Origin: Luteimonas rhizosphaerae
GTDB taxonomy: Bacteria > Pseudomonadota > Gammaproteobacteria > Xanthomonadales > Xanthomonadaceae
NCBI RefSeq assembly: GCF_002849595.1
Contig: NZ_NRQR01000028.1
Coordinates: forward strand, 62,001 to 126,000
Reading direction: 5' to 3'
DNA length: 64,000 bases
Below, piece by piece: positions 9,423 to 17,996 of the stretch (position 1 is the stretch's first letter; the number at the start of each line of letters is the position of its first letter). The translations under genes and the position numbers were made by a program. The notes below the pieces were generated by a model. The model was not told the origin of the DNA and searched no databases. It saw nothing but the letters and a program-made list of their open reading frames with translations.

Positions 9423-10858
9423 CGCGCTGCTCCCAATCGGCGACCGGCCCACCCGAGCAACAACAGGGTTGCGATCAGCCAGCCAAGCAACACCCACACG
9501 CCGGGTGCCATAGCCACGAGCAACGTAGGTGAAGATGCCGGCTCGAACACGAAGGGCGGGATCTCCTGCCAGTGATGATGATCGACGCGCTTGCGCCGGT
9601 CGGCCCCGACGTCCTGCGCCGTGTCGTCGGCGAAGGACACGCCGTCCGCCTGCAGCTGGTTGAGTTGCTGCACCAGCCGGTAGCGATGCGCTTCCGCCTG
9701 CTCGAGAAAGCGCAGATGTGCGGCCAGATCGGTGGCCGAGGCGGCCATCGATACCTGACGCAACGCAATCGATGGGCTCAACACCGAGGCCCAGGCCACG
9801 AGCGTGTTCTGTTGGTGCTGGATCTGCGCGCTGCGGGCGGCGTACCGGTCGAACAGGCCCGACGTCAACCGTTCGCCTTCCACTGCGACCAGCCCTTTGT
9901 AGTTCACCGGCAGATCTTCGATACGCGCCACACCATAGCGGTCGAGCACGCTCTGTCGGAACTGGGCGAAGTAGGGATCGTTCGGATCGTGGCTGTCGCC
10001 GATCGCGCGGAGATCGCGTCCGATACCGACATCGGTCTGCAGACGATCGGGCAACGGATACGCCGCGTGTGCGAGGTCGGGCGCGATGCGTGGGACGAGG
10101 AGGGCGGACACGGCCCAGATGCCGACCAGGGCGAGCAGCGCATCCCGACGACGGGCGAGCAGCGCCGATATCGAGGCGATCAGCGCGCACCACAACGCCA
10201 TGTACAGTCCGTAGGCGAGCACGAGCAACAGCGTGACGCCGAGAGATGCGCCGGGCTTGGTTGCCATCATCGCCAGTCCCACCCACGCCGGCAGCATGAA
10301 CATTGCGGCCACCGCGAACAACGCGGCGAGCTTGCCGCCGAGGATCGAAGCGCGCGACGCGCCTTGCAGCATCAACTGCCGCAGCGTCCCGCGCTCCCGT
10401 TCGGCCGCCAGCAGACCATGTCCCAGGAAGACCAGGACGAGGGGGGCGAGTATCTGAAGGACGAACGCAGGTGTCAGTTGACCGAAGCGGGTGAGGATCG
10501 AGCCTTGCATGACATCGCCGAAGTTGGCGGTGTTCTGGCGGTGACCTTCGAGGAACATGCTGCTACCGGTGAACGGGTCGACGCCCGCGTCGAAAGCGGC
10601 CAATGCGCTTGGCAGGCGGTAGACAAAATGGCCGTAGTGCACGACGCGATGCGGGTGCCGGTCGGGCTGCGCGTTGAAGGCATCCTGTGCGGCTGCCTGC
10701 TGCCGCGCGCGGTGGTCCGCGGCGCTGTCCATGTGGTGCAGGGACACTACGGTCGCGACAAGCGACAGCATCGCAAGCAACGCGATGCCTGCCAGTGCGG
10801 TGCGGTTGCGCGCCATCGCGCGCAGTTCGTTGCGCATCACCGGAACGAATGCACTCAT
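9419..10858 (-). CDS. ABC-2 type permease, DUF3526-like (first of pair)
   Basis: The protein has 479 residues. An N-terminal helix follows MRNELRAMARNRTALAG, then come an extracytoplasmic domain (about residues 40-150), five or so helices in the middle and a final helix near VWVLLGWLIATLLLLGW. It shares topology with its downstream neighbour, suggesting a heterodimeric permease. Both junctions are four-base ATGA overlaps (with the ATPase at 10855-10858 and with the next permease at 9419-9422), so the three transporter genes are translationally coupled. Confidence 0.7.
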   Translation of the reverse strand: MSAFVPVMRNELRAMARNRTALAGIALLAMLSLVATVVSLHHMDSAADHRARQQAAAQDAFNAQPDRHPHRVVHYGHFVYRLPSALAAFDAGVDPFTGSSMFLEGHRQNTANFGDVMQGSILTRFGQLTPAFVLQILAPLVLVFLGHGLLAAERERGTLRQLMLQGASRASILGGKLAALFAVAAMFMLPAWVGLAMMATKPGASLGVTLLLVLAYGLYMALWCALIASISALLARRRDALLALVGIWAVSALLVPRIAPDLAHAAYPLPDRLQTDVGIGRDLRAIGDSHDPNDPYFAQFRQSVLDRYGVARIEDLPVNYKGLVAVEGERLTSGLFDRYAARSAQIQHQQNTLVAWASVLSPSIALRQVSMAASATDLAAHLRFLEQAEAHRYRLVQQLNQLQADGVSFADDTAQDVGADRRKRVDHHHWQEIPPFVFEPASSPTLLVAMAPGVWVLLGWLIATLLLLGWAGRRLGAAR

Positions 10859-11577
10859 GCCAGGCGCGTCCGGCCCGAGAAATGCGCGTGCAGTGACGCG
10901 AGATCGAAATCGGCGCGATCAGACTCATGCACGATCCGGCCGTGCTCGAGCACGCCGATCCGGTCGGCAACCTCCACGGCCCCCATGAGGTCGTGGGTCA
11001 CCATCAGCACGGACGTGCCTCGCGCGCGCACCGCTTCCAGCAGACCATGGAAATCCGCGCTCGCGCCCGGGTCCAGACCCGAGGTGGGCTCATCGAGCAG
11101 CAGCAGTGGGACGTCCCGCATCAGTGCGATCGCGATGGCGACCTTCTGCCGCATGCCTTTCGAAAACCCGCTCACGCGCTGACTCCACGCCGCTTCCTGC
11201 AGCCCGGCCGCACGCAGCGCCTCGTGGATCGATGTCGCGTCGTGGTCCCGGCCGGCCAGCGACAACAGATAGTCGACGTTCTCGAAGGCCGTCAGATGGT
11301 CGTAAAGCGCGACATTTTCCGGCAGGTAAGCCACCTGGGCGCGGGTGCGATCCGGTGTCTGCCAAGGCGTCATGCCGGCGACATGGACCTGGCCGCTATC
11401 CGGCTTCAGGAATCCGAGCACGACGTTGAGCGTTGATGACTTGCCGGCGCCATTGCCACCCAGCAGCGCATAGATCTGTCCGTTGTCGATCCGCAGATCG
11501 AGGCCGGAGAGCACGGGCTTGCCGGAGAACGCGACATGAAGTGCTCGGATATCGAGGACGGATCCAGCGTTTGGCAT
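10855..11577 (-). CDS. ABC transporter ATP-binding protein, NosF-like
   Basis: The protein has 240 residues from ATG 11577 (MPNAGSVLDI). Walker A is GGNGAGKSS, the signature is VSGFSKGM, Walker B is LLLLDEPTSGLDPGA and the switch is THD. The FSKGM-type signature and short length are typical of ABC-2 exporters such as NosF/CcmA rather than of ZnuC/FecE importers. It is the first gene of the operon, and its start is 36 bases from the palindromic operator. It would energise the two permeases encoded downstream. The substrate is not deducible from the sequence. Confidence 0.85.
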   Translation of the reverse strand: MPNAGSVLDIRALHVAFSGKPVLSGLDLRIDNGQIYALLGGNGAGKSSTLNVVLGFLKPDSGQVHVAGMTPWQTPDRTRAQVAYLPENVALYDHLTAFENVDYLLSLAGRDHDATSIHEALRAAGLQEAAWSQRVSGFSKGMRQKVAIAIALMRDVPLLLLDEPTSGLDPGASADFHGLLEAVRARGTSVLMVTHDLMGAVEVADRIGVLEHGRIVHESDRADFDLASLHAHFSGRTRLA

Positions 11578-11613
11578 CAGAAGCGGCCCTGAGAAATGGG
11601 CGCGCACTCTATC

Positions 11614-11648
11614 ATGTAATAACATTACATATAACGCTGAGCTGCCAA
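11614..11648 (-). promoter_or_regulatory. Zur-like operator and promoter of the ABC/TonB operon
   Basis: ATGTAAT-AAC-ATTACAT (11614-11630) is a perfect 7-3-7 inverted repeat. Read on the minus strand it contains ATGTTATTACAT, one base different from the core in front of znuD. A TTGGCA -35 (11648 down to 11643) precedes it, again as at znuD (TTGGCAGCYCA in both). No good -10 outside the palindrome is visible, so the repeat probably covers it. The prophage att core begins about 10 bases upstream of the -35. Confidence 0.6.
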
Positions 11649-11649
11649 T

Positions 11650-11680
11650 CTTAAATTACATAATGTACATTCGGCCCGAC
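11650..11680. other. attL (dif-like XerCD site, left)
   Basis: A XerD-type arm TTACATAA, the central TGTACA and a degenerate second arm TTCGGCCCGAC. Only the first arm resembles dif, so the poor XerC-side arm is presumably phage-derived. The core also encodes the last four residues and, with the host side, the stop of the minus-strand repressor-like gene. Confidence 0.75.
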
Positions 11681-12045
11681 TCCGCGCCCGCAAACTGCTG
11701 AATTTCAAGCGGTTTAGCTTCCGACGCTCGAGCGCTTAGGCCGACCGCCAGACAGCACACCCCGATCACCGTAGTGACCGGGGACAGTCTGTCCCACAGT
11801 GCGCCCCACGCCTTCCGTTCCGCCTTCGCCTCTGCGCCTTCCTGTCGCACAAGCACGATCAGAGCGGGGTCTGCCTGCGCCATGTCGATCACCTTTATCA
11901 GGTGTTCGTCCGTGATTCGGTTCACGCCTTTGCGCCACTGCATGACCGTCTGCCCGGTCACCTTCAACGCTTGAGCTAATGCCCTGTCGCTGTCGCGGTC
12001 GCACGTTTTTCGCGCCGTGTCAAGCAATTTATTTAGCGTCTGCAT
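11656..12045 (-). CDS. phage repressor-like HTH protein whose 3' end is formed by attL
   Basis: The protein has 129 residues from ATG 12045 (MQTLNKLLD), preceded by GGAAAG. A TTG twelve bases upstream is possible. Residues about 19-50 form a helix-turn-helix (ALAQALKVTGQTVMQWRKG), as in DUF3693-type proteins of filamentous phages, and one hydrophobic helix follows near residues 92-108. It is divergent from the lytic genes, as expected of an RstR-like regulator. The end MYIM-stop is read from the att core. In the excised circle the frame would continue 25 residues (LIVTRWLRR...), stopping inside the start of the next minus-strand gene. Confidence 0.65.
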   Translation of the reverse strand: MQTLNKLLDTARKTCDRDSDRALAQALKVTGQTVMQWRKGVNRITDEHLIKVIDMAQADPALIVLVRQEGAEAKAERKAWGALWDRLSPVTTVIGVCCLAVGLSARASEAKPLEIQQFAGAESGRMYIM

Positions 12046-12057
12046 ATCACTTTCCAA

Positions 12058-12088
12058 TTGACAGTGGTGTCATTCCTGAGTTTATATT
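12058..12088 (+). promoter_or_regulatory. prophage rightward promoter with overlapping operator
   Basis: A perfect -35 TTGACA (12058-12063) is followed by TTATAT/TATATT at 12082-12088 with 18-19-base spacing. The -35 is embedded in the inverted repeat TGACA-GTGG-TGTCA (12059-12072), a likely repressor site. It lies between the divergent repressor-like gene and the replication/structural genes. Confidence 0.6.
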
Positions 12089-12116
12089 GCCGCGCATCAT
12101 TCACGAAGTGATGCAC

Positions 12117-12145
12117 CCGCCGTCCGGCCTCCCCCGGACCGGCGG
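12117..12145. other. GC-rich hairpin ahead of the phage genes
   Basis: CCGCCGTCCGG and CCGGA-C-CGGCGG pair over 11 bases with one bulged C and a CCTCCC loop. It sits in the leader between the promoter and the first plus-strand ORF. In a single-stranded DNA phage such a hairpin could also be a replication-origin or packaging element; not decided by sequence alone. Confidence 0.4.
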
Positions 12146-12178
12146 CGGGGCTTCCGGGGCCGGGGAGGGGATACATCC

Positions 12179-12361
12179 ATGACCATGCAGCACGTCATCG
12201 AAGCTGCGGCCGACGCCGCCTTCGAACGGTACGTCGAGGCGCTCGCAGCGAGCGCCATCATTCCAGCCGCGCAGCACGATCTGTTCGAAGCTCGTCGCGA
12301 TGAAGCCATCGAGTGGCGCGGCATCTACATCGCATGCGAACTCGCGGCGGTGCGCGCGTGA
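12179..12361 (+). CDS. small phage protein, unknown
   Basis: 60 residues, acidic and Ala-rich (AAADAAFERYVEALAASA), predicted helical and soluble. A strong Shine-Dalgarno (GGGGAGGGG) lies 6-14 bases before ATG 12179. The stop overlaps the GTG start of the next ORF (GTGA). First gene of the plus-strand phage operon; no family recognised. Confidence 0.6.
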   Translation: MTMQHVIEAAADAAFERYVEALAASAIIPAAQHDLFEARRDEAIEWRGIYIACELAAVRA

Positions 12362-12522
12362 GCCGCGTCATTCTCTGGGTGGTCGTCTTGCAGCTTGCCG
12401 TGCTGCAGATGTTCGTTGCGACCGATGATCCGAGCCTCTACGTGTGGTCGGCATTCGTCGCGATCATCTCAGGGCTTAATTTCGTTCTCTCGGCTTCCCG
12501 CTACGCGCGGAGTCTCCGTTGA
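12358..12522 (+). CDS. small phage membrane protein
   Basis: 54 residues from GTG 12358, overlapping the previous stop by four bases. Two hydrophobic segments are separated by a short polar turn (ATDDPSLY): [16 protein letters not shown] and [16 protein letters not shown]. The end RYARSLR is basic. Start choice rests on the overlap. A two-helix inner-membrane protein of the phage; function unknown. Confidence 0.55.
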
Positions 12523-13376
12523 TCGGCGCACTTACCGCCGATGTCATGTGCGCGGCTCGCGCACGTCGCACTGCGGACGCTTCTGCGTCCCTGGCGACCT
12601 TCCTTCCGTTCGCGTCGAAGGCTGGCCGCGAAGCGGCCGGCCTTGGGCTTGTCCATTCTTCAACAAGTGACACGCGAAGCGCGTCGCGCATCTCAATCGA
12701 ACTCGACCAGAACCGCATCAGGGCCATGCGGTTGAAGAAGTCAATCATCACGGGCGCCAGACTCCATGACCAAGAAGCCACGAAGGGCAGCACGCGGGGC
12801 GCGTGGTACATGCTCACCACGACCTACGCAACAGATGGCAGTGCAAGCCCTCGCGACATTAGCGAGTTTCTTAAGCGAGTCCGGGGCTTCTTCGATCGCG
12901 CTGCAAGACTTAAATTCCGGGCTAACCGTCCGCGCTTCCGTTACCTCTGGGTCGGTGAACTCACCCAGCGACTGCGACCGCACTACCACGTCCTGATTTT
13001 CATCCCGCGCGGGATGTTCATTCCGAAGGCCGACCGCAAAGGCTGGTGGCCTCACGGCTCAACGAAGATCGAAAAGGCCCGCAACGCTGTGGGCTATCTC
13101 GCGAAGTACGCGAGCAAATTCACCGCTGCGTGTGCAGAGCATTTCCCCAAGGGATTTCGCACGCACGCCATCGGCGGATTGAGCGATGAAAGCAAGCGTG
13201 AACTTCGCTGGTGGAAGTCCCCCAGCGATGCGCGCGAAGCCCTCGGCCCGGATGCCGACATCCGCAAGGTTCAAGGCGGTTACGCCAACAAGCTCACTGG
13301 TGATTTCTGGCCCTCACCGTGGCGCGTTTTCTTCCTAAAGGGCCGGGTCATCGCATGGAAATTGGAGGCTCTATGA
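12519..13376 (+). CDS. phage rolling-circle replication initiator
   Basis: 285 residues if the TTG at 12519, overlapping the previous stop and preceded by GGAG, is used; the first ATG is 12546. Motif RPHYHVLIF at about residue 153 matches the metal-binding HUH-type motif. [11 protein letters not shown] at about 190-200 supplies the catalytic tyrosine(s), Y-x3-Y. This arrangement is that of Rep endonucleases that nick the viral plus strand and start rolling-circle replication (gene II role). The next gene overlaps by four bases (ATGA). Confidence 0.8.
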
Positions 13377-13711
13377 GCACCGTAGCCGCACCCGCATCAC
13401 CGTCCACCGCTGTCGCCAGCATCAACGCCGATATCCCGCATCTGGTCATCGTCAACGGTCGCGCAGCGCCGCGCACCGTCAAGAAGAAAGACGGTACTTC
13501 GATGATCTTCAACGAGCAGCGCGCAGCCATCGTCAAGCCGGATCGCGACTTCCCGGAGCCGTTCACCATCAACCTGCAGGAAGGCCAGGACCCCTTTCCG
13601 CCCGGCAAGTATCTGCTGTCCTGCGAAGCTCTCGACGTCGGCGATTTCGACAGCCTCCGCGTCGCGCGTCGTATTCGCTTGATCCCGTTCTCGCAGCTCG
13701 GGCTCAAGTAA
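13373..13711 (+). CDS. phage single-stranded DNA-binding protein (gpV role)
   Basis: 112 residues from ATG 13373 with GGAGG eight bases before; an upstream in-frame reading to 13319 lies inside rep. A flexible Ala/Ser/Pro N-terminus leads into a compact beta-rich domain ([42 protein letters not shown]). Size, position directly after Rep and coupling by ATGA overlap match the helix-destabilising protein that coats viral DNA and switches replication to packaging. Confidence 0.75.
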
Positions 13712-13715
13712 CGCC

Positions 13716-13835
13716 ATGCCGTACTGGCTCGCCATCGCGCATCCCGGAACGCTGCTCTGTATCGGCTTCGCGTTCGGCGTCCTCTGCTGCTCGGTCACCG
13801 CAGTGAGCGTCATTCGTAACTGTAGGAACCGCTGA
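13716..13835 (+). CDS. 39-residue phage membrane protein
   Basis: ATG 13716 to TGA 13835. A single hydrophobic segment (TLLCIGFAFGVLCCSVTAVSVI) with three cysteines and the basic end RNCRNR. It lies between the ssDNA-binding protein and the next small gene, one base before the following ATG, as minor-coat genes VII/IX do in Ff phages. Identity as a minor coat protein is inferred from position. Confidence 0.55.
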   Translation: MPYWLAIAHPGTLLCIGFAFGVLCCSVTAVSVIRNCRNR

Positions 13836-13836
13836 A

Positions 13837-14037
13837 ATGCCCCGCGTCCTGACCTGCATCGACCCGTCACCACAACCCGACGGCCAGTGCCTTCAAACGG
13901 CGTGGATCGAGCAGGGCGGACTAGCGGACATGCTGCCCACGATGGCCGAAGCGAACATCGTTGGTAGTGCGTTCTTCGGAACGTTGATCCTCATCGCTTT
14001 CGTCGCAAGAACCCTTAAACCTCCTCGCAACCTCTGA
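13837..14037 (+). CDS. 66-residue phage protein with C-terminal membrane helix
   Basis: Starts one base after the previous stop. An N-terminal polar part with two cysteines (VLTCIDPSPQPDGQC) is followed by a helix (NIVGSAFFGTLILIAFVA) and the basic end RTLKPPRNL. Position immediately before the major coat gene suggests a minor virion or assembly protein. No named family recognised. Confidence 0.55.
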   Translation: MPRVLTCIDPSPQPDGQCLQTAWIEQGGLADMLPTMAEANIVGSAFFGTLILIAFVARTLKPPRNL

Positions 14038-14051
14038 CTCAAGGAATCACC

Positions 14052-14300
14052 ATGAACGTCCGCAATGCACAGTCCGTCTCCCTCCGTGTCCGTGACAAGA
14101 CCGCGAGCCTCCGCAACCGCATCGGCGCCGGCGCACTCGTCGCCATGTCCTCGGTCCCGGCCTTCGCGCAGGCGCCGGATACGACCGACATCGAAGCCAA
14201 TTTCGTGCTCTACGGCGCGGCTGCGGTCGGTCTCATCATCGCGTTCTGTGCCGTGCTGTGGTCGATCCGCGGCGCCAGCCTGATGAAGCCCAAGCAGTAA
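14052..14300 (+). CDS. major coat protein precursor (pVIII role)
   Basis: 82 residues. A basic N-terminus and hydrophobic stretch end in SVPAFA with predicted signal-peptidase cleavage near residue 40. The mature 42 residues are the classic inovirus coat layout: acidic amphipathic start (QAPDTTDIEANF), one membrane helix (VLYGAAAVGLIIAFCAVLWSI) and basic end (RGASLMKPKQ). It is followed 15 bases later by a strong terminator, as usual for the most abundant virion protein. Confidence 0.85.
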   Translation: MNVRNAQSVSLRVRDKTASLRNRIGAGALVAMSSVPAFAQAPDTTDIEANFVLYGAAAVGLIIAFCAVLWSIRGASLMKPKQ

Positions 14301-14315
14301 TTCACCGGTAACAAG

Positions 14316-14339
14316 CGGGGACCATCCGGTCCCCGTTTT
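14316..14339 (+). terminator. rho-independent terminator after the coat gene
   Basis: CGGGGACC, loop ATCC, GGTCCCCG and then TTTTC. An eight-pair GC-rich stem between coat and adsorption-protein genes, the usual place of the central inovirus terminator. Confidence 0.85.
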
Positions 14340-14353
14340 CTTTGGGGAATGTC

Positions 14354-14440
14354 ATGTCCTTCGCCGAACACCTCCTACCGCTAATCACGCTCATCTGGTG
14401 GATGTGCGCCGGCGTTATTGCATCCACGGGGTGGGACTGA
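14354..14440 (+). CDS. 28-residue phage membrane peptide
   Basis: ATG 14354 preceded by GGGGAA. It reads MSFAEHLLPLITLIWWMCAG and ends at TGA 14440, whose last base is the A of the adsorption-protein ATG (TGATG coupling). One hydrophobic helix. It is probably a leader or minor coat peptide translated together with the next gene; no family recognised. Confidence 0.5.
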   Translation: MSFAEHLLPLITLIWWMCAGVIASTGWD

Positions 14441-15975
14441 TGAAGTGGTCAAGCTTCATCGCACGCACCGCTGTGCGTCGCGTGATCTGGATTCTGGTCG
14501 GTCTCGTCGTCTATGCGGCCATCGGCTGGGTGTCGCCTGCTCACGCGCAGGCGTGCCCTGCAGGTGTTGGTCCTGGCATCACCCGGTCTGGTACATATCC
14601 CACGCGACCGGAGGCCTACGCAGCATGCCAAGCCGATGCCGCTGCCAACGAAGGTAAGACCTTCTCCGGTGTCATTCGCCGCAATCTCACCTGCTCAGAC
14701 GAAGGTACTAGCTATCGCCTTCGCGCTGACAATTTTTCGAACACGCCGCCCTGTAATCAGACGAGTTCCGGCTTCGTCGGATCGACAGCGCAAGCGTTCC
14801 GCTGGACCGCGGATTGCCCTGCCAATGCGCCGTGGAATCCCACCACCGGCCAATGCACGCAGCAGTGCACCTCGAAGCCGGATATCACGACAACGAAGCC
14901 TCCCTTTGCGCCTGCAGGTATGGGCAGTCCGTCCAACTTCGGCCAGTGCTCGAATAGCTGCTACGTCCAGTTCGTCAACAACCAAGATGGCACCTACACC
15001 GGCGTGCACGTCAGCAACGCGCAATGCGACGGCGACGGCCTCCCTGATAGCGCAACCTGTGCGCTCACCGGCCGCGTGTCCGGGCCTTGGGGCTGCATGG
15101 ATCCACCGCAGGAATGCGCTGCAGGCCAGATCAAAGACCCCGTAACCGGTGAGTGCAAAGGCGGTGGTTGTCCTGCCGGAATGGTCGTCACCGATAACGG
15201 CAGCTGCAGCCCCGAAGGCGATACGTGCCCGCCTGGACAAATCAAATCACCCAACGGCGGATGCCTGCCCGGAGAAGGTCAGTGCGCTGCAGGCGAGGCC
15301 CGAGGCAAAGACGGCACATGCAAGCGCGACAGCGACGGCGATGGCGTCCCCGATAGCGAAGGCGAGGGCACTGACCCCGACGCTGACACCTTCGCCGGCG
15401 GCGACTCCTGCAGCGCGCCACCGTCTTGCAACGGTAACCCTATCCTTTGCGGTCAAGCGCGCATCCAGTGGCGAATCGACTGCAACACGCGTCGCCGCGT
15501 CAACATGACCGGTGGCAGCTGCGGTAACGAACCGCGATGCGTCGGCGAGAATTGCAACGCGATGGAGCAGTCGCAGCTCATCCAGCAGTTTCGCGCCACC
15601 TGTCACCTTGAAGCGATCGCACAGAGCCTAGGTGAAGGCGGAGGCGCTCCCGGCGGTGACGACACTGTCGATTGGCTGCAATCCGCACGCCAGTCCGACA
15701 CCGATGCAGCGAACGCCGTAGCGGCTCAGGGTGACGGCCTAGAAGGCGTCCAAGAGTCCGACGCATGGGCGCAGTCCGATCCCGATCAAGGTTCCATTAG
15801 CGAAACGCTGTTCGGTGGCTCCGTCACGCAATGCCCGCTCGTTCCTGCCGGGTTGAATCTCATGGGCATGCAGCTCATGGACCCGCCAGCATCCTTCTGG
15901 CAGCTCGCACATTGGATTGGCTGGTTGCTCGTCGCGTCCGCTTATCTCGCACTCGCTATCAGGCTCGGAGACTGA
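14440..15975 (+). CDS. phage adsorption protein (pIII role, TspB-like)
   Basis: 511 residues from ATG 14440. The signal peptide ends near SPAHAQA (residue about 38). The ectodomain is Cys- and Gly-rich with repeated C-x-A/P-G blocks. A calcium-loop-like acidic stretch (DSDGDGVPDSEGEGTDPDAD) lies at about residues 305-325, followed by a C-terminal domain with paired cysteines and a final membrane helix (WIGWLLVASAYLALAI). Layout and position between coat and pVI-like genes match the tip protein that binds the host receptor, in the group often annotated as TspB virulence factor. Confidence 0.75.
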   Translation: MKWSSFIARTAVRRVIWILVGLVVYAAIGWVSPAHAQACPAGVGPGITRSGTYPTRPEAYAACQADAAANEGKTFSGVIRRNLTCSDEGTSYRLRADNFSNTPPCNQTSSGFVGSTAQAFRWTADCPANAPWNPTTGQCTQQCTSKPDITTTKPPFAPAGMGSPSNFGQCSNSCYVQFVNNQDGTYTGVHVSNAQCDGDGLPDSATCALTGRVSGPWGCMDPPQECAAGQIKDPVTGECKGGGCPAGMVVTDNGSCSPEGDTCPPGQIKSPNGGCLPGEGQCAAGEARGKDGTCKRDSDGDGVPDSEGEGTDPDADTFAGGDSCSAPPSCNGNPILCGQARIQWRIDCNTRRRVNMTGGSCGNEPRCVGENCNAMEQSQLIQQFRATCHLEAIAQSLGEGGGAPGGDDTVDWLQSARQSDTDAANAVAAQGDGLEGVQESDAWAQSDPDQGSISETLFGGSVTQCPLVPAGLNLMGMQLMDPPASFWQLAHWIGWLLVASAYLALAIRLGD

Positions 15976-15979
15976 CCTC

Positions 15980-16273
15980 ATGCCCGCACTGCTCGCTGCA
16001 TTTTTCGCCGCCGTAGGTCCTTGGATCGCGCGTTTCATGATGGTCAAGGGTGTCTTGATCGTCGCCGGCTTTATGGCTCGGCTTGGTGTCGTTCTCGCGA
16101 CCAACGAGTTCGCCATGGAACCCTTGATCGAGCACGTCACCACGATGTGGATGACCATCCCCGCCGGCATGCAGTGCTGGCTCTCGCTTCTTGGCGTCAC
16201 CAAGGTCGCGTCGATCATGGTTACTGGCATGACGCTCATCGGCTTCAAACGCGTCTTTATCGCGAGGGCTTGA
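15980..16273 (+). CDS. phage minor coat protein, pVI-like (DUF2523)
   Basis: 97 residues from ATG 15980, four bases after the adsorption gene. Three hydrophobic segments: LLAAFFAAVGPWIA, VLIVAGFMARLGVVLA and VASIMVTGMTLIGF. Size, topology and position between the adsorption and Zot genes are those of DUF2523/pVI proteins, which anchor the tip protein and finish virion release. Confidence 0.7.
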   Translation: MPALLAAFFAAVGPWIARFMMVKGVLIVAGFMARLGVVLATNEFAMEPLIEHVTTMWMTIPAGMQCWLSLLGVTKVASIMVTGMTLIGFKRVFIARA

Positions 16274-16275
16274 CC

Positions 16276-17463
16276 ATGAGTGCCATTGCGAAAACCTCAT
16301 CGATCACCCTCATTACAGGCGTTCCCGGCAGCGGCAAGACGCTGCGCGCCGTGTGGTACGCAAAGCAAGCTGTCGACGCGGGCGAGACCGTGTTTCAGTG
16401 CAACGTCAACGGCATGGCCGTTGAAGGCGTGATCGAATTTCCGGACCCCACGAAGTGGGAGGACCTGCCCGCCGGCGCCGTGCTCATCGTCGACGAGTGT
16501 CAGCGTTTTTTCCGCGCCGGCATGGGCGCCGGCAAGTCGTTGCCGAGCTATATCGCGCAGATGGAGACGATCCGGCACATGGGCATCCGGCTCATCCTGC
16601 TGACTCAGCATCCCGCGCTGATCCACGGCAATATCCGTGCGCTGGTCGGCATGCATGAGCACATCGTGCGCGAGGATGGTAAGCAGTCCGTGACGGTCTA
16701 CACGCGGTCGCGTGTCATCGACAATGTGCGCAGCGATAGGGCGCTCGCGACGGAAGATCATCACACCTGGGCATACCCGAAGGAGGTTTTCGAACTCTAC
16801 AAAAGCGCGGAGGTGCACACCGTCAAGCGGGTGTTCAAAGCGAAGTACAAGCGGGCCATCATTCTTGCCGCTATCGCGCTGCTCATCTTCGGCGCCGTCG
16901 CGTTGTTCGTTTACAGAGACATTGCGTCCAAGAAGGAGGCGGGTGCCACTGCCAGCGGTGGCGCGCTAGCGGCGACTCAGCCGCCTAGCGCCACCGCTGG
17001 CAGTGGTCCCGCCGATTCCAAGGTCGAACCGCGCTGGGAAACGGCCACCGACTACGCCATCGATCACCTCCCGCGATTCGGCACCATGCCGTGGACGGCG
17101 CCGATTTTCGATCAGCGCGCCGTGACGGCCGACCCGCAGCTCTATTGCCTGTCCTCGTCCGGCGGCCTCAATGCGCTGGGCGACTACAAGGAACCGTCCT
17201 GCAGCTGCATGACGGAGCAGGGCACACGTTGGGACATCAGCGACGCTGAGTGCCGCACGGTCGCGCTGCACGGCGCCCCCTATAACCCCTACCGCCAGCA
17301 GCAACAGCAGCAGCCCCAGCAGCCACAGCAGGCCCCCACGCAGCCCGCCGGCGCCCAACCCGCGACCGTCGTGGGCGTCGGCCCCTCCTACGGTGCCACG
17401 GCCTCCTATGGCGACTACGGGATCGAGACAGGCCGCTACATCGGGCAGGGCGTCGGTCGCTGA
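16276..17463 (+). CDS. zot: Zot-family phage assembly ATPase (pI role)
   Basis: 395 residues from ATG 16276, two bases after the pVI-like gene; readings from 16021 overlap that gene. The cytoplasmic ATPase has Walker A GVPGSGKT (about residue 15) and Walker B VLIVDEC (about 70). One membrane helix lies at about residues 195-213 (AIILAAIALLIFGAVALFVY). The periplasmic part is Pro/Gln-rich near the end (YRQQQQQQPQQPQQ). Inovirus Zot/pI drives export of the virion through the inner membrane. Confidence 0.85.
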   Translation: MSAIAKTSSITLITGVPGSGKTLRAVWYAKQAVDAGETVFQCNVNGMAVEGVIEFPDPTKWEDLPAGAVLIVDECQRFFRAGMGAGKSLPSYIAQMETIRHMGIRLILLTQHPALIHGNIRALVGMHEHIVREDGKQSVTVYTRSRVIDNVRSDRALATEDHHTWAYPKEVFELYKSAEVHTVKRVFKAKYKRAIILAAIALLIFGAVALFVYRDIASKKEAGATASGGALAATQPPSATAGSGPADSKVEPRWETATDYAIDHLPRFGTMPWTAPIFDQRAVTADPQLYCLSSSGGLNALGDYKEPSCSCMTEQGTRWDISDAECRTVALHGAPYNPYRQQQQQQPQQPQQAPTQPAGAQPATVVGVGPSYGATASYGDYGIETGRYIGQGVGR

Positions 17464-17520
17464 ATTCCGCTCGAGCGGTGTTCCATTTCTGGAACTCGAA
17501 CTCCGCCTGTGTTCCTCGAA

Positions 17521-17573
17521 TTCCGACGTCTGGTCGGAAATAGAACAATCAGGGGTGCAGGGCATCGCCCTGC
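17521..17573. other. two adjacent hairpins downstream of zot
   Basis: TTCCGAC-GTCTG-GTCGGAA (17521-17539) and GCAGGGC-ATC-GCCCTGC (17557-17573) lie in the 126-base gap between the convergent zot and minus-strand regulator genes. They could end both transcripts. In filamentous phages this position often also holds packaging or origin hairpins. Confidence 0.5.
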
Positions 17574-17589
17574 GGATACGCTCCTGACG

Positions 17590-17907
17590 CTACACGCCGC
17601 CCCTGAGCGCCTTCTGCACGTTCTCGCGCAGCCCCGGCCCCGGCCCCGAGCCATCCACCCCGCAAACCCGCTTCTGCGCGTACCGGCGTCGCACGCCGTC
17701 CCGGAAGTGCACGATCTTGGCATCGAACCGGAACGGCCGCTGCTCGCGGTCCTCCTGCATCATGGCTCGCCATTCTTGCGCGATGCCCACCGTCAGTGCC
17801 AGGTATCCAAGGTCATCGGGTCCAAACTCGTGTCCCTCGGGCGACACCAGCTTGTCGCCGCGGAACGAAAAACCGGCCCAAGGGCCGGTCAGTTGTCGAT
17901 CACGCAT
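17590..17907 (-). CDS. phage accessory protein, DUF3653-like
   Basis: 105 residues. The N-terminal TGPWAGFSFRGDKLVSPEGHEF and LGYLALTVGIAQEWRAMM are, as I recall, shared by small proteins annotated DUF3653 in Xanthomonad filamentous phages; the C-terminus is basic. It is transcribed opposite to the virion genes. In the circular phage it lies directly downstream of the repressor-like gene, whose extended frame would end eight bases into this gene (ATGCGTGA). A regulatory role is inferred. Confidence 0.55.
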   Translation of the reverse strand: MRDRQLTGPWAGFSFRGDKLVSPEGHEFGPDDLGYLALTVGIAQEWRAMMQEDREQRPFRFDAKIVHFRDGVRRRYAQKRVCGVDGSGPGPGLRENVQKALRGGV

Positions 17908-17968
17908 GGGCCTGCCTCCACAGTACGGCCGGCCGACGCTGCCGAAGCCGTCGCAGCCACCGCGTGAC

Positions 17969-17996
17969 GATTAACATAATGTACATTATGCGAAGT
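17969..17996. other. attR (dif-like XerCD site, right)
   Basis: A XerD-type arm TTAACATAA (17971-17979), central TGTACA and XerC-type arm TTATGCGAAGT. Read on the minus strand it closely matches the E. coli dif pattern as I remember it (CGCATAA, six bases, TTATGTTAA). Joined with the left host arm it would regenerate the chromosomal dif. Confidence 0.75.

Follow-up and report, generated by a model that had tools for sequence, protein, structure and literature searches.

An inovirus prophage at dif in Luteimonas rhizosphaerae: the attachment site lies in a regulator gene whose end changes on integration

We analysed a 64,000-nucleotide (nt) stretch of the Luteimonas rhizosphaerae genome (contig NZ_NRQR01000028.1, positions 62,001 to 126,000; hereafter the window), in which an inovirus prophage, inserted at the dif site of the host, occupies positions 11658-17987. 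One end of the prophage falls in the gene for a helix-turn-helix (HTH) regulator and the other lies beside a gene for a DUF3653 protein. An earlier note on this DNA had proposed that integration rewrites the end of the regulator and that the lysogen and the circular phage would make two different forms of it. Here we describe the junction in the window and in related phages and weigh what the arrangement may mean.

A prophage at dif with a split regulator gene

The prophage carries the gene set of a filamentous phage: a G2P-like replication protein, a Zot/pI-like protein and a single-strand DNA-binding protein (Table 1). The longest repeat common to its two end regions is a 14-bp attachment (att) core, ACATAATGTACATT. 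At the DUF3653 end this core and its flanks form TTCGCATAATGTACATTATGTTAATC, the sole dif-like site in the host genome when searched with a dif pattern at up to 3 mismatches. At the regulator end it runs on into host bases as TTATGTAATTT, a form of that dif arm that is common in the genus; TTATGTAA is read in 25 of the 35 dif matches listed for the genus (counted from the list), with a pattern that is biased to A or T at that position and gives no match in 17 of 52 genomes. XerC and XerD arms at one end, the core repeated at the other and the lack of any phage integrase match all fit dif integration; the integrase result covers the eight phage proteins scanned with Pfam, other small open reading frames (ORFs) lying outside that scan. 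Insertion was presumably carried out by the host XerC/XerD recombinases. Scans of both prophage ends found no Sigma-70 promoters.

Table 1. Features of the prophage in the window
Feature	Position	Strand	Remarks
Regulator, DUF3693-type HTH, lysogen form, 129 aa (amino acids)	11656-12045	-	Pfam DUF3693 E 2.2e-07; PHROG 638 transcriptional regulator E 2.2e-25
att core copy, regulator end	11658-11671		host XerD-side arm to its left
Replication initiation protein, REP_ORF2-G2P	12519-13376	+	Pfam E 2.9e-30
Phage single-strand DNA-binding protein, Phage_DNA_bind	13376-13711	+	Pfam E 8.1e-15; positions are the searched stretch plus stop codon
Zot/pI-like assembly protein	16276-17463	+	Pfam Zot E 1.5e-24
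DUF3653 protein, 105 aa	17590-17907	-	Pfam DUF3653 E 7.4e-09
Terminator-like hairpin, ACCGGCC CTTG GGCCGGT then T-run	17861-17890	-	within DUF3653 codons for LTGPWAGF
Native regulator's final 24 codons, now detached, LIVTRWLRRLRQRRPAVLWRQAHA	17903-17974	-	stop TGA 17902-17900
att core copy, DUF3653 end	17974-17987		lies within TTCGCATAATGTACATTATGTTAATC

In the lysogen, the minus-strand regulator frame runs from the ATG at 12045 to AESGRMYIM and a TAA at 11658-11656 whose last two bases come from the host, exactly as the earlier note had placed it. When the phage ends are joined at the core, the frame continues from MYIM into LIVTRWLRRLRQRRPAVLWRQAHA before it stops; the continuation that the note had predicted is therefore real, at 24 residues beyond MYIM and not 25, and gives a 153-aa long form. 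The joined sequence bore out the end-point as well: the regulator TGA overlaps the DUF3653 ATG at 17907 by 8 nt as ATGCGTGA. The encoded C-terminus is thus not the same in the lysogen as in the circular phage, and the long form meets the start of DUF3653. The phage junction of the window was inferred by joining the prophage ends, and findings that would contradict it were looked for in relatives.

The att core lies inside the regulator gene of related phages

In Cf2, phiXv2, Cf1c, XacF1, phiSHP2, phiLf (a record without annotation) and SMA6 (a proviral record), the att core falls within the regulator frame, which stops at the start of DUF3653. The phage attachment site (attP) is annotated within the regulator coding sequence in Cf2 and phiXv2, and in Cf2 the 8-nt overlap is identical to that of the window; the long form that the earlier note had proposed to look for in free-phage genomes of the group is therefore on deposit. 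Integration of Cf2 is reportedly carried out by XerD, according to a 2020 paper in Virology. The annotation of the Vibrio phage VGJ puts a functional attP within ORF154, which encodes a DUF3693 protein (E 1.2e-20), and the gene after it matches DUF3653 below the Pfam cut-off (20.3 of 22.4 bits). Finally, the predicted type of junction is physically present in tandem prophages of relatives (L061, L065 and L117/L179). Because the core lies inside the regulator both in phage records and in some tandem prophages, the joined reading is the native one, as the earlier note had argued.

An attP inside the regulator is already published for XacF1. The part consulted of a 2014 paper places it inside ORF12 and considers a possible split (PMC4076744), and the split on integration was reported in 2017 (PMC5666396). 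In the latter work, deletion of the 5′ part of ORF12 with attP kept gave an equal or higher titre, delayed integration and an unstable prophage, and the authors regarded ORF12 as the equivalent of phage Cf's primary immunity determinant (PMC5666396). The change of C-terminus, the unlinking of DUF3653, the frame compensation and the hairpin described below are discussed neither in the main text of PMC5666396 nor in the part consulted of PMC4076744.

Joined regulators end on the DUF3653 start whatever the core frame

We sampled 395 genomes of the family evenly from a larger group, and 59 of them carry the regulator at E 1e-5 or better. In all, 168 hits were collected, 114 from public contigs, 45 from family genomes (40 genome stretches used), 8 from phage records and 1 from the window. 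A core lay near the end in 152, and the 16 others were left out, as were 73 further hits with no matching core and DUF3653 upstream in the stretch. This left 79 joins (61 from public contigs, 17 from family genomes, none from phage records and 1 from the window), with 62 distinct junctions. Distinct counts were used because some contigs occur twice (e.g., L050/L090). The DUF3653 start was taken as the nearest ATG, GTG or TTG at or upstream of the profile match. Later counts of distinct tails omit one join (L122, overlap -61), which looks like a mis-pairing within a tandem array, and keep another (L071, -43).

Several features of the joins emerged: (i) of the 79 joins, 77 had their regulator stop within -5 to +10 nt of where DUF3653 starts, with overlaps of 4 nt in 41, -2 in 18, 8 in 16, -3 in 1 and 10 in 1; (ii) the att core was read in all three frames, as YIM, HYAK/VYYV or TLCE; and (iii) single tail types stood behind different core frames. 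When tails were sorted into classes by a pattern of our own on the tail end, class C followed core frames 1, 2 and 0 in 11, 5 and 5 cases and other classes followed two or three frames; likewise, the LHRKRTGQ tail family occurs behind all three core frames and the HGA family behind two. A regulator and its tail can keep one frame across a fixed core that shifts it only through compensating changes, suggesting that readthrough is probably selected.

Tandem prophages provided a comparison in which a regulator meets a foreign tail. The comparison covered 12 distinct regulators that have a tail of their own as well as a neighbour's DUF3653; the two tails are alike in 1 and unlike in 11, and tandem junctions lacking an own tail were not counted. 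The stop fell in register at 1 of the 11 unlike junctions and in 10 of the 11 with the regulator's own tail. We rejected the mere openness of the joined frame as proof of the joined reading: of 61 distinct cases, 56 were also open in the +2 frame of the tail DNA and 27 in its +1 frame. Tail DNA is GC-rich and its other frames are often open too, so an open frame is weak evidence; we therefore rely on the end-point, the frame compensation and the heterologous junctions.

Integration exchanges the regulator end and separates the gene from DUF3653

At the host junction the phage tail is replaced, in the window by a stop that the host dif supplies and elsewhere mostly by foreign codons, up to 163 of them. 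A TAA directly after YIM or HIM ends the frame in 7 regulators (window, L056, L058, L059, one in L073, L081 and L087). We considered and rejected a stop codon set by the phage: the TAA comes from a dif common in the host genus, and the frame runs on at most other junctions. Integration also moves DUF3653, and the hairpin with it, to the other end of the prophage, away from the regulator. A scan of 11500-12350 found no terminator-like site after the lysogen regulator, so that its transcript may run on into the host gene ending at 10855 (region 10855-11656, minus strand), which reads by eye as an ABC-transporter ATPase. In one contig (L129) the actual regulator end is the phage tail, as in an uncut circle or a tandem.

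A conserved hairpin within the first DUF3653 codons

In the window, the terminator-like hairpin (Table 1) begins about 10 nt beyond the native regulator stop. In relatives, the codons for TGPWAGF read ACCGGCC-NNTG-GGCCGGT followed by a T-run, the shape of an intrinsic terminator on the regulator's strand. The stem is intact in 80 of 81 LTGPWAGF genes (27 of 28 cluster representatives) and in none of 10 genes of a TGPWAGW clade. Across 62 distinct motif sequences, Gly is encoded by GGT in 54, against a GGT usage of 22%, and the mean folding energy is -13.3, compared with -7.6 (standard deviation 0.35) in 200 synonymous resamplings, for which codon usage was taken, as a rough measure, from all long open frames of the sampled stretches. 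The commonest codon had a mean share of 0.96 in the 6 hairpin columns versus 0.68 in 16 other conserved columns. The latter mean includes 4 columns near the end of the gene that are as codon-conserved (0.95-0.99) as the hairpin; they occur in 67-74 of the 81 sequences and lie, in the median, about 29, 19, 8 and 2 residues before the end. Their conservation speaks against the hairpin being exceptional.

Public viral contigs held at least 142 hairpin matches in the 117 stretches examined out of 120, and 122 of these were in frame as LTGPWAGF. By eye, 17 of the rest resemble variants of the gene, several with a changed loop residue and the stem kept, and the last 3 of the 20 (L206, L234 and L293) are terminator-like sites elsewhere. 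The XaF13 record annotates a terminator at the hairpin position. With such a hairpin conserved at the start of DUF3653, the coupling of the regulator to this gene is not simple.

The wobble positions of the hairpin are fixed across divergent phages, and the stem is retained despite the change of loop residue. Two inverted copies, 242-332 bases apart, are present in 12 of 80 viral contigs among the matches listed (L187, L189, L191, L195, L198, L199, L213, L220, L225, L233, L248 and L253), and one more match lies on a different contig of the host genome. The hairpin might alternatively be a packaging signal; a 2024 paper in Virology is said to describe that of Xanthomonas integrative filamentous phages.

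Tail peptides are diverse

The earlier note had ascribed a basic tail to the long form. As a general functional element such a tail was not supported: there are at least four tail families, of which one is hydrophobic, and the basic tail is not conserved. Within one family, tails keep clear amino-acid similarity. For classes A, B and C, the Nei-Gojobori ratios of nonsynonymous to synonymous change (dN/dS) came to 0.65, 0.79 and 0.56; we discarded them as proof of purifying selection on the tail peptide, which could not be demonstrated.

A possible integration-dependent switch

What could such an arrangement do? The phage carries its attachment site in the 3′ part of the HTH regulator gene, immediately ahead of DUF3653. 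As its sequence and the phage records show, the regulator of the circular phage reads through attP into a phage-coded tail, and its ribosomes finish on the DUF3653 start. Integration swaps the tail for an end encoded by the host dif (here an immediate stop) and relocates DUF3653 and its adjacent hairpin to the far end of the prophage. We propose that this arrangement is a switch. Only the integrated copy would make a regulator free of the tail and of a coupled DUF3653, and we infer that lysogeny and immunity depend on this version. The replicating circular phage would make the long, DUF3653-coupled version, which would be weaker, unstable or counteracted. The selected feature may be the arrival of ribosomes at DUF3653 as much as the tail peptide. 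We lean slightly towards the view that the regulator end and its DUF3653 linkage form a switch that depends on the state of integration.

Several observations weigh against it. In the Vibrio phage VEJ an in-frame stop precedes att, and ORF11 of XaF13 ends ahead of att, an overlapping ORF10 carrying attP; the earlier note had named a gene ending before att as contrary evidence, and these two relatives are counter-examples. In fSU1 the core is inside the regulator, but no DUF3653 is annotated as the next gene. Lysogen ends are heterogeneous: in 53 distinct junctions with no recognised DUF3653 behind, some of which run into other phage DNA, the codons past a 9-nt core numbered 0 or fewer in 6 (the frame ending within the core or at once), 1-10 in 11, 11-40 in 20 and more than 40 in 16, so that no defined short form is conserved. 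In the tails, column shuffles reached the observed dN/dS in 11, 36 and 21 of 100 trials for classes A, B and C, and one alternative frame gave a lower value for classes A and B.

It is quite possible, if short of an even chance, that the tail is a translational bridge only. Integration would then silence DUF3653, whose entry hairpin would need an arriving ribosome to be read through, and leave the regulator protein unaltered in effect. This explanation overlaps with the proposed switch, and the two are not exclusive. What is conserved is the overlap (4, 8 or -2 nt) and not the tail sequence, and both the spacing of the hairpin behind the regulator stop and its near-universal presence in LTGPWAGF genes fit a bridge. 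However, tails of one family do resemble each other as peptides, DUF3653 could have its own expression in lysogens and the TGPWAGW genes retain DUF3653 without the hairpin.

Alternatively, the position of attP could be an accident of a compact genome, in a dispensable regulator 3′ end, with both forms acting alike and no switch at all. The differing tail families, the arbitrary foreign-coded ends in lysogens, the weak selection on tail peptides and the VEJ and XaF13 regulators that do not read through would all fit. We nevertheless regard an accident as unlikely, because att lies in the 3′ part of a DUF3693 regulator, before a regulator-like gene, from Vibrio VGJ to the xanthomonad phages, and because the stop falls on the DUF3653 start in nearly all joins despite three core frames, as against 1 of 11 heterologous junctions.

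Least probable, and a special case of the proposed switch, is a degradation tag as in mycobacteriophage BPs, by which the tail would mark the regulator for host proteases until integration removed it: 40 of 59 distinct tails end in alanine, 3 of them in EIAA, and host bases adjoining the core supply the stop here as they do in the part consulted of the BPs work (PMC9262239), but the alanine codon is forced by ATGCGTGA in the families with the 8-nt overlap, and the 19 tails of class C end instead in TGQ, RTG, TRQ or QCS, which also speaks against the proposed switch. The tags added by ssrA end in LAA or similar, whereas the window tail ends in QAHA. A general ssrA-like tag was rejected, no shared degradation tag having been found.

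Relation to known systems

Like the window phage, the Xanthomonas inoviruses XacF1, Cf1c and Cf2 (ORF12 in XacF1, cp8 in Cf1c) have attP in the 3′ end of an HTH regulator, which integration splits, and a DUF3653-like gene next; XacF1 also integrates at dif through XerCD, according to the part consulted of PMC4076744. The regulators of XacF1 and Cf1c read across the XerC-side arm and that of the window phage across the XerD-side arm. VGJ-type Vibrio inoviruses (ORF154/ORF136) likewise have a functional attP in a DUF3693 gene that overlaps the next, regulator-like gene, but the tail and the downstream gene have diverged and ORF136 lacks the LTGPWAGF motif. VEJ differs from the window phage by its internal stop. 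In its record (L181, 642-1103), that stop lies near the hydrophobic segment and leaves a 98-aa form.

In mycobacteriophage BPs and its relatives, attP lies in the repressor ORF and integration truncates the C-terminus, according to the part consulted of PMC4557955. The window phage shares this, and the host-supplied stop extends a close anatomical parallel; many relatives of the window phage gain foreign codons instead of a truncation. Unlike BPs, the window phage is a single-strand DNA phage that uses dif instead of a tRNA gene; among its eight scanned proteins no integrase, and thus none co-transcribed with the repressor, was found, and its group appears to have no uniform ssrA-like tag. No title or abstract opening in the open literature, among the matches listed, concerned integration-dependent immunity in inoviruses.

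We put forward only tentatively that an XerCD-driven switch arose in dif-integrating filamentous phages of Xanthomonadaceae and Vibrio, separately from that of the mycobacteriophages, in which the regulator end is rewritten and an attenuator-guarded DUF3653 is unplugged at the same time. If so, the host machinery of chromosome resolution would flip the phage between chronic production and silent lysogeny, and a regulator whose protein end and operon are both altered by integration would be a concrete, testable integration sensor that needs no phage integrase. Frame compensation over about 60 distinct junctions and a hairpin fixed in coding sequence point to long-term selection on the junction, and suggest that in prophages the ends of such regulators are easily mis-annotated.

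Further features of the regulator

Protein scans of the genome-contig and viral-contig collections with the window regulator as query returned no relatives. Each of 5 regulators computed has one hydrophobic segment, with a best 19-residue mean hydropathy of 1.8-2.2, and in several an AxA resembling a signal-peptidase site follows it, as judged by eye; the regulator may thus be membrane-bound. The first part of PHROG 34897 matches the regulator and its last part DUF3653, a lead for joint action of the two proteins.

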